From assembly GCA_016212695.1 (NCBI GenBank), contig JACREX010000055.1, positions 1-34,917 of the forward strand: a DNA stretch of 34,917 nucleotides. Direction: 5' to 3'. Source of the stretch: Bacteroidia bacterium (lineage in GTDB: Bacteria; Bacteroidota; Bacteroidia; Bacteroidales; GWF2-35-48). Within the stretch, counting starts at the first letter, position 1; the number at the start of each line of letters is the position of its first letter. Positions 2,419 to 34,917 of this stretch are shown piece after piece. Under the pieces are notes generated by a model that was given only the letters and a program-made list of their open reading frames with translations, ran no database searches and was not told where the DNA came from. The position numbers were made by a program, and so were the translations under genes.

Positions 2419-5400
2419 TATTCGAGTGTTATTTTTTTAATAATGAATTTATCAACTTTAGTAATCTTAATGAAATAATTACTCTTGCTGAATTTGCCTA
2501 AGTCAATGCAGTTGAAATACAAAGCCTTATCCAGGCGATAAATAACTCTTCCGAGAATATCAGAGATTTCAATCGAAGTGTTTTCTACATTCTCAATAAA
2601 TAGTACTCCCCGGGTCGGATTCGGGTAAATTTTTATAACAGATACTGTGGTAATATCACCGATGATGTTGTTAAAGTCAACATAAATAGTATCGGTAGTG
2701 TGGCATCCATTCGCATCGCTCACCACATACCAGTAGTCGCCAACGATTAATCCCGTAATGTCTTCCGTGGTGCTGCTGTTGCTCCAGATGAAATCATAGG
2801 GTAATGTTCCTCCGGTTACGGTCAGGTTGATGGCGCCGTCGGCAGATGTTGAACTGGAAGCATTGGTAACCGTGTCGGTAACAACAAGCAATTCCGGTTC
2901 ACTTATCAAAACAGAATCAAGTTTTAAACAAGCGTTATCATCCGTAATAGTGAGGTAATACATGCCGGGAGCAAGACTGAAAATATTTGGCGCTAAGCCC
3001 CCGTTTGACCATGAATAGGATAAGTTGCCGGTTCCTCCGGTTGCGCTAACACTTGCTATTCCGTCATCAAGGCCGTAACAACTGATGTCTGTTGCGCTTG
3101 CCGTAACCGAAATGGCGCCGGGCTGGGTAACTTCGGCAGAGTCGGTAACCGTACAGGCATTTCCGTCGGTAACTGTGATAAAATACCATCCTGCGCCAAC
3201 ATTGGAAACACTGGATGTATTATCTCCGCTGCTCCATGAATAGGACAAAGTTCCCGTTCCGCCGGAAGCAGTAGCACTAATTATTCCAAGCGTGTCACCA
3301 TAGCACAACAATGTAAATCCGGAAGCGGTAGTTACAATGGCGCCTGGTTCTTCAATAAGAACAAAATCAATTTTTGTACAGTTATTTCCATCAGTGATGG
3401 TTACATAATATGTTCCGGCCGGCAGGTTTGAAATAACCGCAGCGGTTCCTGAGTTTGACCAGAAATAGGAATAGGGTTCCGTTCCACCGGAAGGTGTAAC
3501 TGTGGCTTCTCCATCGTCTGCATTGTAACATGTGATATTAGTACCTGTAACGGTTGAAGTAATGCTGCATTCTGTCGGAGAGCCGCTCACCACGGCAAAG
3601 GGGCTGCAATTAGTTACACTGTCGCGGCCTATAAACCACATACCCGTGGTATCCTGAAATGCAGAATCCGAAGGAATGGTATCCCATGAAACGCCGTTAT
3701 AATGCGTTACATAACAACTGTCATGGTTGAAATCGTTCTGTTCCATATCCTGTGTCCATCCAACGCCCATACTGAAATTATAATCTGTCATATCTGTGGA
3801 TACGTCCCATGTATTGTTCACGATATTGTTGTTAATGGCAAGGTTTGCCCCGGTGTCACCCTGCGCAAAAACTCCCGGGTTGACCCTTACCGAGAACTGG
3901 CCGTATTCTGTAACGCTGTTCTGTCTTACAAACAACGGAGTATAGTTCGAAAGAGTACCAACCGGAAAGTTTACTATGCCGGAAGTGTCATTTACAAAAC
4001 GGTAGAGGCGTCCCGTGTCAGAGGTTACAATATAATTATCTTTGTCAAATCCTGTAATCTCGGCAAGGCTGTCGAGAATAAGCTTGTAGTCGCCAAGGTC
4101 AATTTTACCGTTATTCAGGGCCAGTTCTGTGTTCACCCTCAGGTCGCTTCCCATTTCAATCATACTGTTGGCCCGGTCAATCACAAGGGATTTTAGTTCC
4201 TGGGCATTGGGTGTAAAAGTAAGATTCGAGGTGAGAGCATTCACTCCGCCAATTACCAATGTGGCTTCAGCGCTGCCGCTTATGCTTCCGTTGTCTGCCT
4301 GGAAATCGCCGCTCACAACTAATGTATCCTTGTCAAGGACAATCTCGCCGTTCACTGCATACAGGTTACCATTCACCGTAAGGTCGCACCCGATAACAAC
4401 CGTGTTGGGCGGTTCAACGCTGACTGAAAGATCATTCACTTCTGCTGTACTGGCAAGGAAAATCAAGGTATCAATATTTCCCTGGCTGGCAATGATCATG
4501 TTGGCCTGTGGGCTGCCGATAAAGGCGGCATAATCAATCACAAGGTCTCCGTTGATAGTGAGTGTTGAATTGGCAATATTGATATTACCGGAAGTGAAAT
4601 AGAATGTATCAACCAGGGTGAGATTGCCGTTCAGCACAAGGTCGCTGGAATTGCTGTAAATCAAACCCGACAGGTTTTCATAATTCGGAATAAAGCTTAA
4701 AGTGTCCATAGAACCGTTGCCTGAGAATGCAAGCGTGAGAGCATCACTGCCTGCAAATTGTCCGTTTGGCGTGGTTTCAAAATTATTGTTTACATTAATA
4801 TTAATTGGTATTGAAGAAGTATCTGATAAATTTCCTATAGCACCATTTACAAGGTTTAATGTATTGTTAACATTTAATGTAAGATTGCTAGGCGGCCCTG
4901 ATTTGTATGGTGGACCAGTTGGCGCAACATCCAACATACCATTCAATATTTTAATATTGTTCACCGTAAGATTGCTGCCTATACCTACCAATCCCGAAGG
5001 AATTCCATTAAGCTTTGCTCCTGCCCTGTTTATAACCAATTCATTCAGCACTTCACCAGTTGGAGTAAATGAAAGGATACCTAAAGTGTCAGTTCCGCCG
5101 ATAATCATTGTAGCTGTTGCATTACCTGTTATTGTACCGTCCTCATTTGTCATGGTTCCGTTAAGAGTGATGGTGTCTAAAGATAAAACTAATTCGCCGT
5201 TTAGCATATACAGGTTTCCGTTGACAGTGAGGTTGCAGCCTAAAACTACTGTATGACCGCTGTCAACTCCAACAGTGAAATTGCTGATTGTGCACGCCGA
5301 CGGGTCGAACATGAGAGTATCAATATTTCCTGAACCAAGCAGCACAAGGTTTGCAAACTGGCTGGGAGAAAGCTGTGCATTGTCGAGAATCAGGTCGCCG

Positions 5401-8937: not shown

Positions 8938-9038
8938 TAAAAATTTTTTGTTAATGGGAATTCAATAATTGGTATTTGTACCTATTTTTTATATCTTGCG
9001 TGAATTATTATTACTGCTTTTATAATTTATCTGGAGCT

Positions 9039-11372
9039 ATGAAAAAAAGCTTAAAGTTTACAATATTTTTTCTCACAATCGTATTGTTCGGAAATTTTGG
9101 AACAAATGCAGGCAATGTTGCAGACAGCCTGCTTTCTGTTTATAAAAATGCATCTTCTGATACTTCACGCATAAAAGCATTGATTGATATCGGGAATAAT
9201 TACAGGGGACAAAATCCTGATTCTGCCCTGTCATATTACAGAAAAGCATCCGGTTTGGCCGAAAAGGCTGGAAGCAAAAAATTCCAGGCGCTGGCTGTGA
9301 AAAATCAGGGAATTATTTTCGACCTTCAGCATGATTTTGACAAGGCAAGGGAAAAATATCTGAATGCATTGGAAATATATTCTTCAATACCTGATAAAGA
9401 CGGGATGGCTGCATGCCGTTTCAATATCGGGCTTTCGTATTACAACCAGGGCCGATATGCCGATGCAAATGCCTTGATTCAACAAGCCCTGGAACTTTAC
9501 AGAGAACTTAAAGAACCGGCAAAGCAGGCGCATTGTTATTCAAATCTTGGGAACATTGCCTTCCAGCAGGGAAATTATCCACAGGCTATTAACAGTTACC
9601 AGGAGGCCATGAAAAAATTTGAGGAAGCCGGAAATAGCAATGGAGTTGCTGACAGTTATAACAATATAGGGAATATTTATTACAGGCAGCGCAATTTTGC
9701 TCAAGCCGGCGATTGTTACGACAAAGCACTTTCAAAATACCATGAATCCGGAAATACAATGGGCGTGGTTCTTTGTTACAACAATCTAGGGCTTATCAGT
9801 AATGATCAGAAGGCATATAAGAAAGCAGTGGATTATTTTCAGAAAGCGCTCGAAATAAGCGAAAAATCGGGCAACAGAAAAGAGTTTGCCATTTGTTATT
9901 CCAATATAGGTATGGCATATTATTCCGGAAAAAATCTGAATAAGGCTATTGAATTTTTTAACAAAGCATTAGTGATTTGTGAAGAGACAGGCGATAAGCT
10001 GAAAACTGCCGTAACCCTGGGAAATATTGCAAAGATTTACAATACGCTTGGCGATTCTGTAACAAATGTTGTTGAGAAAAAGAAGCATTATTCCGAGGCA
10101 ATAAAATACGCCCTCCGTTCTGATAGTATTGCTGAAGGCATTGGCGCTTTGCACGAACGGCAACAGGCCTGCAGTAATCTTTCAGCTTCTTATGAAGGGC
10201 TGGGCGATTACAAAACTTCTTTGAGATATCATATCCTGTACACCACAATAAAAGACACCCTGGTGAATATGGAAACAAACCGGCTGGTTTCTGATATGAG
10301 CGCAAAATATGAATCCGAAAAAAAGGAGCTTCTCATTGGCAAATTATCGAAAGAAAAAGAGTTTCAGGTAGCTGAAAACAAGAAGCAGCGGATACTTATT
10401 TTTTCATTTATTGCAGGATTTATCATTATCGCTTTTTTCCTTATCATGATTTTCCGCCAGTATAAACAAATAAAAAAGGCAAATAAATTACTCGCTGAAC
10501 AAAAGCATGAGATTGAAGATAAGAATGAAGAACTGAATCAACAGAATGAAGAAATCCGTACGCAGAGAGACGAAATAGAAGTGCAGCGGGATCAGATAAC
10601 AAAAATTCATAGAGAAATAACAGACAGCATCCATTATGCAGAACGGATTCAGAAAGCTATTTTACCGCAACTTGAAGAAAACATCCCTCTTATTAAGGAC
10701 ATGTTTATCATGTTTAAGCCGAAAGATGTTGTGAGCGGAGATTTTTATTTTATGCGTCATATCGAAAGCTCCAATGTTCTTGTAGCGGCGGCGGCAGACT
10801 GCACCGGACATGGAGTACCCGGCGCCTTTATGAGCATGCTGGGTGTTACATTTCTGAATGAAATTTGTTTAAACCCGGAAATCCAACATTCAGGCGAAGT
10901 TCTTGATCTGCTCCGAAAATACATAATCACTTCCCTGCATCAAACTGGTAAATTCGGCGAACAGAAAGACGGTATGGATATTTCTCTTGTTGCCATTTTC
11001 ATTGATAAAAGAGAGCTTGAATTTTCAGGTGCCAATAATCCGTTATACCTTATTAGGGACAATGAACTGATAGAATACAAAGGGAATAAAATGCCAATCG
11101 GTATTCACGATAAAGCCAATCAGCCTTTTGCAAGCCAGTTAATCAAAATTCAGGATGGCGACTGCATTTATATGTCTTCCGATGGTTTTTCAGATCAGTT
11201 CGGCGGCGAGGACGGAAAAAAATATATGACAAAAAATTTCAAGAAATTCCTGCACTTAATTCATCAAAAACTAATGGATGAACAACGAATTTTAGTTGAA
11301 AAAGAATCCATAGACTGGAGAGGTAAGAATGAACAGATCGACGACCAGTTGGTGATGGGCATACGGTTTTAA
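9039..11372 (+). CDS. TPR-domain SpoIIE-family protein phosphatase (membrane sensor)
   Basis: The start is taken at ATG 9039, which has GGAG five bases upstream and opens a signal peptide (KKSLKFTIFFLTIVLFG); an in-frame ATG at 8976 would add 21 residues that spoil it. The 777-residue product has TPR repeats at about 60-400 (NLGNIAFQQGNYPQAINSYQ, SYNNIGNIYYRQRNFAQAGD), a transmembrane helix at about 451-473, a coiled coil at about 475-540 (KNEELNQQNEEIRTQRDEIE) and a PP2C-type SpoIIE domain to the end. The phosphatase shows DVVSGDFYF, AADCTGHGVPGAFMSMLG, SDGFSDQFGG and the terminal DDQLVMG, so the metal-binding Asp residues are kept. Such proteins probably sense an exported or periplasmic signal through TPRs and dephosphorylate an anti-sigma antagonist or similar partner. 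A near-consensus box TATCTTG (8992-8998), 20 bases after TTG (8969-8971), may drive it. Confidence 0.88.
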   Translation: MKKSLKFTIFFLTIVLFGNFGTNAGNVADSLLSVYKNASSDTSRIKALIDIGNNYRGQNPDSALSYYRKASGLAEKAGSKKFQALAVKNQGIIFDLQHDFDKAREKYLNALEIYSSIPDKDGMAACRFNIGLSYYNQGRYADANALIQQALELYRELKEPAKQAHCYSNLGNIAFQQGNYPQAINSYQEAMKKFEEAGNSNGVADSYNNIGNIYYRQRNFAQAGDCYDKALSKYHESGNTMGVVLCYNNLGLISNDQKAYKKAVDYFQKALEISEKSGNRKEFAICYSNIGMAYYSGKNLNKAIEFFNKALVICEETGDKLKTAVTLGNIAKIYNTLGDSVTNVVEKKKHYSEAIKYALRSDSIAEGIGALHERQQACSNLSASYEGLGDYKTSLRYHILYTTIKDTLVNMETNRLVSDMSAKYESEKKELLIGKLSKEKEFQVAENKKQRILIFSFIAGFIIIAFFLIMIFRQYKQIKKANKLLAEQKHEIEDKNEELNQQNEEIRTQRDEIEVQRDQITKIHREITDSIHYAERIQKAILPQLEENIPLIKDMFIMFKPKDVVSGDFYFMRHIESSNVLVAAAADCTGHGVPGAFMSMLGVTFLNEICLNPEIQHSGEVLDLLRKYIITSLHQTGKFGEQKDGMDISLVAIFIDKRELEFSGANNPLYLIRDNELIEYKGNKMPIGIHDKANQPFASQLIKIQDGDCIYMSSDGFSDQFGGEDGKKYMTKNFKKFLHLIHQKLMDEQRILVEKESIDWRGKNEQIDDQLVMGIRF

Positions 11373-19105: not shown

Positions 19106-19154
19106 AAATCCTAAATCCCAAATCCCAAATCCTAAATCCCAAATCCCAAATTCA
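19106..19154 (+). repeat. Tandem heptamer repeat between sdhC and sdhA
   Basis: Six perfect-register seven-base units run from 19106 to 19147: AAATCCT, AAATCCC, AAATCCC, AAATCCT, AAATCCC, AAATCCC, followed by a decayed unit AAATTCA. The array ends six bases before the sdhA ATG and lies within the transcribed spacer of the operon, where it occupies most of the 73-base gap and leaves no room for a Shine-Dalgarno sequence. Confidence 0.9.
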
Positions 19155-19160
19155 TAAATT

Positions 19161-32126: not shown

Positions 32127-33182
32127 TTATCTGTGTAAATATTGGTTGTCGTAATATTTTGAATACTCGCCCGAAACCACATTCATCAGCCATTGCTCAT
32201 TGGCGAGATACCAATCAACTGTTTTTTCAATGCCTTCTTCAAACTGCAGCGAAGGCGACCAGCCTAATTCTTTCTGAAGTTTTGAAGAATCTATGGCATA
32301 GCGCAGATCGTGGCCTGCCCGGTCTTTTACAAAAGTGATAAGCCTGGCAGAGGTTCCCGCCGGACGGTTTAATTTTTTATCCATCACATCACATAACTTA
32401 TAGATGAGGTCAATGTTTTTCCATTCGTTATTTCCGCCTATGTTATAAGTTTCACCGGTTTTCCCTTTATGGAAAATCACATCAATGGCGGCTGCATGGT
32501 CTTCCACATAGAGCCAGTCGCGTATGTTTTCTCCTTTCCCGTAAACCGGGATCGGTTTATTATTTTTAATATTATTTATGGATAGAGGAATTAATTTTTC
32601 AGGAAACTGGTTTGCGCCGTAATTATTGGAACAGTTGGATATCACTATGGGTAATTTATATGTATTGTGATATGCCCTTACGAAATGGTCTGAACTCGCC
32701 TTGGATGCCGAATACGGGCTTTGGGGATCATACGCTGTGGTTTCATAAAAGAATCCTTCATGTTCTAAGGAACCGTAAACTTCATCCGTTGAAACATGAT
32801 AAAACAGTTTCTCATCATGTTGATCTTTCCATATCGCTTTGGCGGCATTTAAAAGGTTGCAGGTGCCGATCACATTGGTTTTCACAAAAGCCATAGGGTC
32901 TGTTATAGACCTGTCCACATGCGATTCTGCAGCCAGATGAATCACGCCGTCGAATAAATATTTTTGAAACAAAGCGAAAATGGTTTCCGTGTCGCAAATG
33001 TCTGCCTTAATAAATTCGTAATTGGGCTTTTTATCAATATCTTTTAAATTTTCAAGATTACCCGCATATGTGAGTTTATCAAGGTTTACGATCTTATAAT
33101 CCGGGTATTTATTTACATACAGGCGCACAACATGCGATCCAATAAACCCCGCCCCGCCGGTGATAAGTATTGTTTTCATCAT
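32127..33182 (-). CDS. rfbB: dTDP-glucose 4,6-dehydratase
   Basis: This 351-residue short-chain dehydrogenase converts dTDP-glucose to dTDP-4-keto-6-deoxyglucose, the route to rhamnose and other deoxysugars of surface polysaccharide. The NAD-binding GGAGFIGSH is at residues 9-17. The catalytic region STDEVYG holds Thr132, Asp133 and Glu134, and the YxxxK pair is Tyr157 and Lys161 (SPYSASKASSDHFV). Length and the motif SNCSNNYGANQFPEKLIP are typical for RfbB/RmlB. The rmlA, rmlC and rmlD partners are not in the window. Two ATG codons are adjacent at the start. A perfect -7 box lies at 33211-33218. Confidence 0.95.
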   Translation of the reverse strand: MMKTILITGGAGFIGSHVVRLYVNKYPDYKIVNLDKLTYAGNLENLKDIDKKPNYEFIKADICDTETIFALFQKYLFDGVIHLAAESHVDRSITDPMAFVKTNVIGTCNLLNAAKAIWKDQHDEKLFYHVSTDEVYGSLEHEGFFYETTAYDPQSPYSASKASSDHFVRAYHNTYKLPIVISNCSNNYGANQFPEKLIPLSINNIKNNKPIPVYGKGENIRDWLYVEDHAAAIDVIFHKGKTGETYNIGGNNEWKNIDLIYKLCDVMDKKLNRPAGTSARLITFVKDRAGHDLRYAIDSSKLQKELGWSPSLQFEEGIEKTVDWYLANEQWLMNVVSGEYSKYYDNQYLHR

Positions 33183-33672: not shown

Positions 33673-34452
33673 CTACATATATCCGCAGATCTTATAAACC
33701 GCACAGCCAGCCAGTTCGTGGAGAAATACATTCCATGCTTCGAGAGCCTGAACATTGGGAAGAAGAAGGTGATCGGGATAGAACTTCCTGTGCCCGGCAT
33801 ATCTGTCTGTAACATACGGATCGGCAATAATGCCGGCTTTCCTGAAACAGCCTAAAGAGCGGCGCATATGCGAAGCCGAAGTGATCAATAAATACCTTGC
33901 CGGCAGGCAGGCAGGTTTTTTGTTCTTTCCCGTAAGTAATTTTGCAGTAAAAACAGCATTTTCGTGTGTATTCCGCGACACTGATTCCGTAAGAATGTCT
34001 TCGTCCGGAGCGCCAATATTTACTAAGTATTTTTTTAAAATTTCCGCTTCTTTCATGCCGGGTTCCTTAAGGCTTCCGGATCCGCTTGTTATAAGTATTT
34101 TTTTTATTTTATTCAGTTTGTATAATTCCAGGGTTTGCATAAGCCTGTCTACACTGCGTACAAAATTCACCCTGTCGTATTCTGAATCGAACGAGATCAT
34201 GCCGCCAAGAATAATACCGTAATCATAGGGTTCTTTTATCTCTTCTTTCTTCACAGCTTTAATTTCCCACGCCCTCATGAATTCGTCAATGATAAAAGAA
34301 TTTGAAAAAAACAGAAGCATGGAAAAGGAAGTGATAAGCGCTATTTTCTTTCGTTTTGGATTTTTGGTAAGAATAGAAAAAAGAAGAAAGAAAATAATCC
34401 AGATTACCGGGGAAATTAAAAAATCTAATATTTTGGACAGGATGAAAAACAT
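33673..34452 (-). CDS. YdcF/ElyC/SanA-family membrane protein (DUF218)
   Basis: The 259-residue product has two N-terminal membrane helices (FLISPVIWIIFFLLFSIL; IALITSFSMLLFFSNSFII) followed by a DUF218 domain: YGIILGGM, KILITSGSGSL, EAEILKKYLVNIGAPDEDILTE, SRNTHENAVF and LLITSASHMRRSLGCFRKAG. ElyC and SanA relatives are involved in envelope integrity in E. coli; the molecular activity is not settled. A segment PACLPAR just before LLITSAS is an in-frame extra stretch coded by a GC-rich word repeat (33895-33915) that family members normally lack. It follows the SpoIIE gene on the same strand by 32 bases, so the two are probably one operon. Confidence 0.88.
   Translation of the reverse strand: MFFILSKILDFLISPVIWIIFFLLFSILTKNPKRKKIALITSFSMLLFFSNSFIIDEFMRAWEIKAVKKEEIKEPYDYGIILGGMISFDSEYDRVNFVRSVDRLMQTLELYKLNKIKKILITSGSGSLKEPGMKEAEILKKYLVNIGAPDEDILTESVSRNTHENAVFTAKLLTGKNKKPACLPARYLLITSASHMRRSLGCFRKAGIIADPYVTDRYAGHRKFYPDHLLLPNVQALEAWNVFLHELAGCAVYKICGYM
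33895..33915 (-). repeat. CCTGCC word repeat inside the YdcF-like gene
   Basis: Twenty-one bases of alternating CCTG/CCGG words (minus strand CCTGCCTGCC, then TGCCGGCAAGG) code for PACLPAR in frame. The plus-strand start TACCTTGCC is shared with the intergenic site at 25841-25849. The length is a multiple of three, so the reading frame is kept. Confidence 0.65.
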
Positions 34453-34484: not shown

Positions 34485-34917
34485 TCATGATATTTTTATT
34501 CCCATTACAGTAATATCATCTGTCTGTTCAAATTTTTCTTCGTAATTATTTTTCCAGTCTTCAATAGTCTTGTCAAGTATTTCCTTTTGTTCGGCCATTT
34601 GTTTATTACAATTTTCGGTTAGTAATTGTTTGAGTTTTTTTGAAAGAAACTTTTTTCCGCCGGGAGTCGGACCGCCAAACTGGTCTTCGTAACCATCGGA
34701 AGCAAGATATATTATATCGCCTGTTTGTAGCTGTATTACATGATTTGTAAATGGTTTCATGTTTTCATAGATTGCGACGGGCATTTTGTCTCCTTTAATT
34801 TCTAAAAGGTCATTAGTCATCAGACATTGGTCATTGGTTTCAAATTGCTTGTTTTTGCCAGTGACTATTGACGAATGACTAGTGACTATATAGAGCGGAT
34901 TGTTTGCTCCGGCAAAT
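34485..34917 (-). CDS. SpoIIE-family protein phosphatase, C-terminal part (runs off the window)
   Basis: The minus-strand frame is open from the window edge (first complete codon at 34914-34916) to its stop at 34485 and gives 143 residues. It matches the end of the phosphatase domain at 9039-11372: FAGANNPLY, KGDKMPVAIY, GDIIYLASDGYEDQFGG, then TDDITVMGIKIS with the conserved Asp pair. Between NNPLYIV and NDLLEIKG it has about 22 residues that its relative lacks; they are coded by a heptamer inverted repeat. The ATG at 34820 lies inside that insert and is not a start. The gene continues beyond the window, and the N-terminal sensor part cannot be described. It precedes the YdcF-like gene by 32 bases. 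Confidence 0.88.
   Translation of the reverse strand, partial: FAGANNPLYIVTSHSSIVTGKNKQFETNDQCLMTNDLLEIKGDKMPVAIYENMKPFTNHVIQLQTGDIIYLASDGYEDQFGGPTPGGKKFLSKKLKQLLTENCNKQMAEQKEILDKTIEDWKNNYEEKFEQTDDITVMGIKIS
34808..34888. repeat. Heptamer inverted repeat inserted in frame in a SpoIIE gene
   Basis: The left arm reads GGTCATT, AGTCATC, AGACATT, GGTCATT (34808-34835, then GG). The right arm reads GTGACTA, TTGACGA, ATGACTA, GTGACTA (34861-34888). The arms 34809-34837 and 34858-34886 are complementary at about 22 of 29 positions around a 20-base loop. All three parts are translated in frame on the minus strand. Confidence 0.8.

Follow-up and report, generated by a model that had tools for sequence, protein, structure and literature searches.

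Simple repeats in the coding sequence of phase-variable contingency loci are known to alter the reading frame when a single repeat unit is gained or lost. Palindromic repeats inside genes are known from Rickettsia: the Rickettsia palindromic elements (RPEs; Ogata et al. 2000, cited in PMC3767692 and PMC3733652) lie in frame inside open reading frames encoding plausible functional proteins and occur in many unrelated genes. REP elements, associated with RAYT transposases (GTAG/CGTC families), are short palindromes located between genes, with some inside ORFs (PMC3733652). The TAACTGA tandem heptamers of Beggiatoaceae, Cyanobacteria, and Bacteroidetes are lineage-specific, mostly intergenic, and occasionally found in ORFs (MacGregor 2015, PMC4679880).

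The window analyzed in this study is the entire contig C216, a stretch of 34917 bp whose right edge is the contig end, from a fragmented draft genome of 4.03 Mb in 259 contigs, in which genes were called by the longest ORF. A sequence-only reading of this window had proposed that an inverted heptamer repeat lies in frame inside a SpoIIE phosphatase domain whose frame stays open to the window edge. This was confirmed: the element occupies 34808-34889, and the minus-strand frame 34485-34916 remains open across it up to the edge. The phenomenon also proved wider than that reading had suggested. The site of the element is hereafter called loop C, defined as the beta-hairpin loop between GANNPLYI and LxEIKxDKMP. 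The features concerned are the following.

34485..34917, minus strand: 3' portion of a SpoIIE/PP2C phosphatase gene, covering the second half of the domain and truncated by the contig end at 34917; PF07228 matches the portion downstream of the insert (E 9e-10)
34808..34889, minus strand: in-frame heptamer-hairpin cassette, 82 bp, encoding (I)VTSHSSIVTGKNKQFETNDQCLMTND(L), identical or 81/82 in C17, C205, C221, and JACRAL010000011.1
34809..34837, plus strand: first inverted arm (arm 1), made of four GTCATTR-type heptamers and complementary to arm 2 at 22/29 positions
34838..34857, no strand: 20-nt spacer between the arms, from the sequence
34858..34886, minus strand: second inverted arm (arm 2), made of four GTCAYTR-type heptamers in minus-strand reading, from the heptamer scan and arm matching
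34890..34917, minus strand: 5' anchor codons F-A-G-A-N-N-P-L-Y, conserved in nearly all paralogs, a possible recombination anchor
34778..34807, minus strand: 3' anchor codons L-L-E-I-K-G-D-K-M-P; in the alignment, divergence among cassette-sharing paralogs starts about 2 nt past the cassette
8976..11372, plus strand: TPR-SpoIIE paralog without the cassette, the empty-site reference (Pfam SpoIIE, E 8e-15)
11046..11084, plus strand: empty form of loop C, YLIRDNELIEYKG (13 codons), in the first SpoIIE gene

The element has a period of seven, with four degenerate GTCATTR units per arm, and the 29-nt arms match at 22 positions, or at 26 when transitions are allowed. A heptamer scan of the window placed all four 19/21 matches within the element, with one unrelated 17/21 match at 32182, against a chance expectation of about 0.4 for matches of at least 17. 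Folded as single-stranded DNA, the element reached -9.9 kcal/mol (z -1.64), and 11 of 200 shuffles were equally good; the single-strand hairpin is of modest stability only. A comparison of the window with Rfam gave no RNA family match. The extra residues had been thought to be coded exactly by the repeat, which was not borne out: the filled loop has 34 aa vs. 13 aa in the empty first gene, where the short form reads, e.g., IRDNELIEYKG, so the net gain is 21 codons for an 82-nt element; rather than being added cleanly as a whole, the element partly replaces or overlaps native codons. Two other repeats were noticed in the window, namely an intergenic AAATCCC heptamer array at 19106-19159, representing another heptamer family of the genome, and a GC-rich in-frame repeat (KKPACLPARYL) at 33895-33925 within the gene 33673-34452, which is similar to the dispersed CCTGCCGGCAGGCAGG repeat.

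The assignment of the gene family is supported by PF07228 scores above the cut-off, the PP2C fold, and conserved motifs: SGDF, D-x-TGHG, DG, and DD, which hold the catalytic, metal-binding aspartates, are invariant in 69 aligned paralog domains, and the best fold match was SiaA-PP2C 6k4e (E 6e-22). The AlphaFold2 model of the C205 domain (pLDDT 88.5, pTM 0.86) is confident apart from loop A and the cassette, which sits between strands 186-189 and 215-218; loops A and C thus appear as low-confidence segments in an otherwise confident PP2C fold. The earlier proposal of a surface loop agrees with this model, which gives a low-confidence beta-hairpin loop.

About 62 SpoIIE genes (76 hits, some split) were found in the genome of the window and about 60 in the sister species; some 60 such phosphatase genes per genome, with varied sensor domains, is an unusually large set. 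Among the 36 loops of this genome that could be read across the site, loop C (GANNPLY to DKMP) varied from 12 to about 60 residues in length and was not a conserved loop of equal length throughout the family. Loop C is empty (about 13 aa) in some of the genes and filled in others with further in-frame palindromic or heptamer repeats: the longer forms include the present heptamer hairpin, TCAAGTTTGATG..CAAACTTCAAACTT, the palindromes GTAGAGACGGGGGAATCCCCCGTCTCTAC and GTAGAGACGGGACATGTCCCGTCTCTAC, CCAACTA/CCAACTG heptamers (QQEAVAVGSE..QLPTTNYQLPT), and GTCATTGCGAG..TCGCAATGAC. Similar inserts occur in two more loops of the domain, A (before FILFKPKDIVSGDF) and B (before QYAGANNP). In several paralogs, a candidate second heptamer site close to the C-terminus (VNSHLSM) was rejected, since it represents conserved helix coding and is probably no insert.

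The whole-genome search recovered four copies of the element at 99-100% identity, all four inside SpoIIE genes, each in a different paralog but at the same codon, on the same strand relative to the gene, and in frame; no full-length 82-bp element was found outside SpoIIE in this search. The carriers are the window gene, a gene on C17, a 773-aa TPR-SpoIIE protein on C205 whose frame is open through the cassette, and a propeller/Y_Y_Y-SpoIIE protein on C221 with an 858-aa open frame through it. Non-coding hairpins built of the GTCATTR unit are present at C37, C117, C172, and C6, but these intergenic hairpins are only partial relatives, with 70-89% identity. A search in 60 relatives yielded a single weak partial match outside this genome.

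A fifth copy lies in another SpoIIE gene on JACRAL010000011.1, where a second repeat directly adjoins it (LLEI-CHTELASHESTELVEVVELVEV-KADKMP). The MAG to which this contig was assigned has SDH genes just 65-68% identical to those of the genome of the window, but bases 1-141 of the contig are identical to the end of contig C164 of that genome. Horizontal transfer between species was rejected for this copy, as the 141-bp identity is typical of assembly overlap; on this overlap, the contig is treated as a misbinned one, probably belonging to the window's organism. On the same contig, the plus-strand frames at ~2121-2300 and 4140-4340 hold the in-frame repeats PSPKNQVPSPKSQD and KLQVPSLKSQVSSLKSQ in WD40-type signalling proteins; therefore, the phenomenon extends past SpoIIE. 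Two of the four copies are at contig ends, since C216 and C17 continue for just 28 and 9 bp past the element, and this, together with the apparent misbinning of the JACRAL contig, could be read as an assembly or binning artefact in which repeats were mis-joined to gene fragments. We regard this as the least probable of the explanations, because the C205 and C221 copies are contig-internal and lie in intact long genes.

Between any two genes the cassette differs at 0-1 of 82 positions, whereas the 3' flanks (up to 300 bp) differ by 8.8-36.5%, the contrast ranging from p 2e-3 for the closest pair to 6e-14 (Fisher). In other cassette types too, the loop DNA is more alike than the flanks, e.g., 99% vs. 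58%/85%. Identical sequence of this kind also bears on the idea that heptamer-like native codons (GACTAATGA) slipped and expanded at each site. Such local expansion is made conceivable by an empty ortholog-like loop in the sister genome that contains GACTAATGAATTA, a 9-nt match to the arm, but independent events would not yield the same 82-bp sequence, spacer, and irregular units in 4-5 genes. It could at most explain the founding event and is contradicted for the copies, so that its overall likelihood is very slim.

In the phylogenetic tree, which was built without the loops as a quick tree with many open forks, the cassette types were scattered. One four-gene clade with 99% support contains two heptamer loops, one CCAACT-type (QQEA) loop, and one empty loop (C116), and cross-species gene pairs at 95-99% support carry different, species-typical fillings, or one member is empty. 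Empty sites were found in paralogs, and the sister-species orthologs have a loop that is either empty or filled with that species' own repeats. A cassette already present in the common ancestor of the paralogs and held by constraint would be compatible with the sister position of C216 and C17 and the closeness of C205 and C221, which indicate that the sharing is partly by descent. Against common ancestry, the genes with heptamer loops form two separate clades, between which lie genes that are empty or carry another filling, the cassette identity is far above the flank identity with p down to 6e-14, and the sister-genome orthologs are empty or hold other repeats; an ancestral loop is accordingly contradicted and highly improbable. 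Some of the empty forms could be losses instead of ancestral states.

The concentration of repeats in SpoIIE genes was also seen with an inverted-repeat scan that is independent of the cassettes. The cassette BLAST is partly circular, because its queries were taken from SpoIIE, whereas the scan, applied to a 767-kb sample with simple ORF calls, is not. Inverted repeats scoring at least 13 had densities of 0.124/kb for SpoIIE genes (7 sites), 0.006/kb for other CDS (4 sites), and 0.377/kb for intergenic DNA (24 sites, several of them ordinary terminators), and the shuffles gave almost none. The SpoIIE loops, almost alone among coding sequences, carry hairpins at a density within about threefold of that of intergenic DNA. 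Loop tolerance in a huge family may suffice for this enrichment, without active targeting.

The fillings of loop C differ between the two species. The GTAGAGAC..GTCTCTAC palindrome has 10 sites in the genome of the window, all 10 within SpoIIE loop C, and a search of the sister genome did not find it there. Loop C of the sister species carries its own palindrome, CATCGCCCCATGGGGCGATG, and variants of it. Of the 19 CATCGCCCCATGGGGCGATG sites in the 6-Mb sister genome, six are in SpoIIE loop C (roughly 0.65% of that genome) and 13 are elsewhere, mostly in non-coding DNA. As this repeat is both dispersed and present in the loop, its distribution clearly indicates that a dispersed repeat has entered loop C in the sister species. 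In addition, CATCGCCCCATGGGGCGATG lies in frame in an IS200-like Y1_Tnp (RAYT-like) gene of the sister genome (G001, C129, L267:496-1047; PF01797, E 2e-7), and a variant palindrome is located directly 3' of this gene. The sample of the window's genome showed only a truncated RAYT-like C-terminus, at C222:13-141, and no RAYT tied to the heptamer element.

These observations give some weight to the main rival explanation, namely that each SpoIIE loop independently received a mobile palindrome, REP/RAYT-like or a MITE, that prefers such targets. The cassette edges are sharp in every comparison, the sister-species palindrome is dispersed outside SpoIIE, in and beside the Y1_Tnp gene, and a RAYT-like C-terminus is present on C222. 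Nevertheless, neither the 82-bp element nor the GTAGAGAC palindrome has copies outside SpoIIE in this genome, all copies have one orientation relative to the gene and occupy one codon, and no target-site duplication is definable, so that we consider independent insertion unlikely while ranking it as the strongest competitor. One codon, one family, one orientation, and identity despite diverged flanks make copying between paralogs the best explanation, and such copying accounts for the copies better than independent invasion does.

Based on this evidence, we suggest, with a probability of roughly 0.7, that loop C accepts repeats, that its cassettes came in from dispersed repeats, and that short-tract gene conversion then copied them from one paralog to another. 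Palindromic and heptamer-hairpin repeats of the intergenic kind have entered, in frame and several times, a hot-spot loop that is tolerant of extra residues and common to ~60 SpoIIE-type genes, as shown by the empty and filled paralogs and by the different repeats in sister-species orthologs. The founding entry might have occurred by RAYT/REP-type single-strand transposition or by template switching at hairpins, a weak step of the proposal. Copies of a founder cassette, with sharp edges, would then have been placed at the same codon in other paralogs, given the identical cassettes in diverged flanks and the lack of full copies outside SpoIIE in the genome search, likely by short-tract conversion anchored on the conserved flanking codons, and selection would retain only the read-through versions. 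Gene conversion as the copying mechanism is our inference from sequence comparison: in the 30 bp beside the loop, paralogs that share a cassette show little excess identity (+0.05 to 0.12 upstream and 0 to 0.08 downstream), so any conversion tracts would need to be very short, and targeted insertion would look similar. When the two domain halves were compared across loop C as a mosaic test, some pairs were strongly discordant (0.82 upstream and 0.47 downstream), for which unequal rates could account. The earlier claim that the repeats arrive in existing sequence therefore holds in part: entry into a tolerant loop is supported by empty paralogs, including C116, whereas the arrival here of the intergenic repeats themselves is not, since the full element is confined to SpoIIE (4/4).

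Concerning the reading frame, seven is not a multiple of three, and a pure heptamer array therefore gives the same seven-residue cycle in three frames. In pure TAGTCAT or CCAATGA arrays, every frame meets a stop within the seven-codon cycle, while stop-free arrays such as CCAACTA give an identical residue cycle in all frames; a stop-free unit is thus readable wherever it lands, and a change of one unit shifts the downstream frame. At five arm positions the cassette deviates from the heptamer consensus, and two of these departures (TCG for TAG and TGT for TGA), affecting both arms, fall exactly where the consensus would give an in-frame stop. The removal of stops as a sign of selection for translation is suggestive only, because non-coding relatives share the TCG variant, as at C37:4298. 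Two paralogs, C155:227-917 (L119) and C81:5198-5882 (L126), are frame-split exactly where loop C carries a CCAACTA heptamer tract; both domain halves are intact, but the frame differs before and after the array. This is what slippage or phase variation would give, hinting at possible phase-variable switches, a view that rests on one assembly per species; the splits may also be consensus errors in a draft assembly. A broader proposal, that the phosphatase loops form a diversification system in which cassettes are repeatedly taken in and copied among dozens of paralogs, giving species-specific repertoires, with heptamer tracts switching genes via the frame, is doubtful at present.

The locus offers a natural series in which one protein loop is empty, filled, or doubly filled, both within a genome and between sister species, which lets one ask how palindromic repeats enter genes and spread, and whether they alter protein function. 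We found no report, in a mostly open-access literature, of several repeat families filling one and the same loop across a large paralogous family. If gene conversion is the mechanism, a loop in a large family of bacterial signalling proteins would be evolving in concert, for which the same literature likewise gave no earlier report.

Among the known systems, the RPEs resemble the C205 and C221 cassettes in that a palindromic or hairpin repeat lies in an ORF with the frame kept. The two differ, since here the cassettes cluster in a single loop of a single paralogous family, the site is shared by several unrelated repeat families, and the copies look converted between paralogs; dispersal in many unrelated genes is not seen, with all four full copies in SpoIIE and inverted repeats at 0.006/kb in other CDS. 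Like REP elements, the sister-species loop palindrome is found mainly between genes and in part inside ORFs, and it also lies in and beside the Y1_Tnp gene; with its 19 copies, it matches the description of a REP as a 20-40 nt palindrome with many dispersed, mainly intergenic copies. The 82-bp element does not match it, being a degenerate GTCATTR heptamer hairpin without a demonstrated unpaired GTAG or CGTC foot and with no full copies outside SpoIIE. The seven-base units are shared with the TAACTGA heptamers, but those are arranged as direct repeats, most of them located upstream of start codons, whereas here inverted arms lie inside a conserved enzyme domain. With phase-variable loci, the shared features are the coding heptamer tracts and the two SpoIIE paralogs frame-split at such a tract; length polymorphism within a population is a feature of those loci, whereas here there is one assembly per species. 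Because it lacks the dispersal in many genes of an RPE and the dispersed copies of a REP, the element is filed as neither, yet it works like an RPE and is built like the tandem heptamers.
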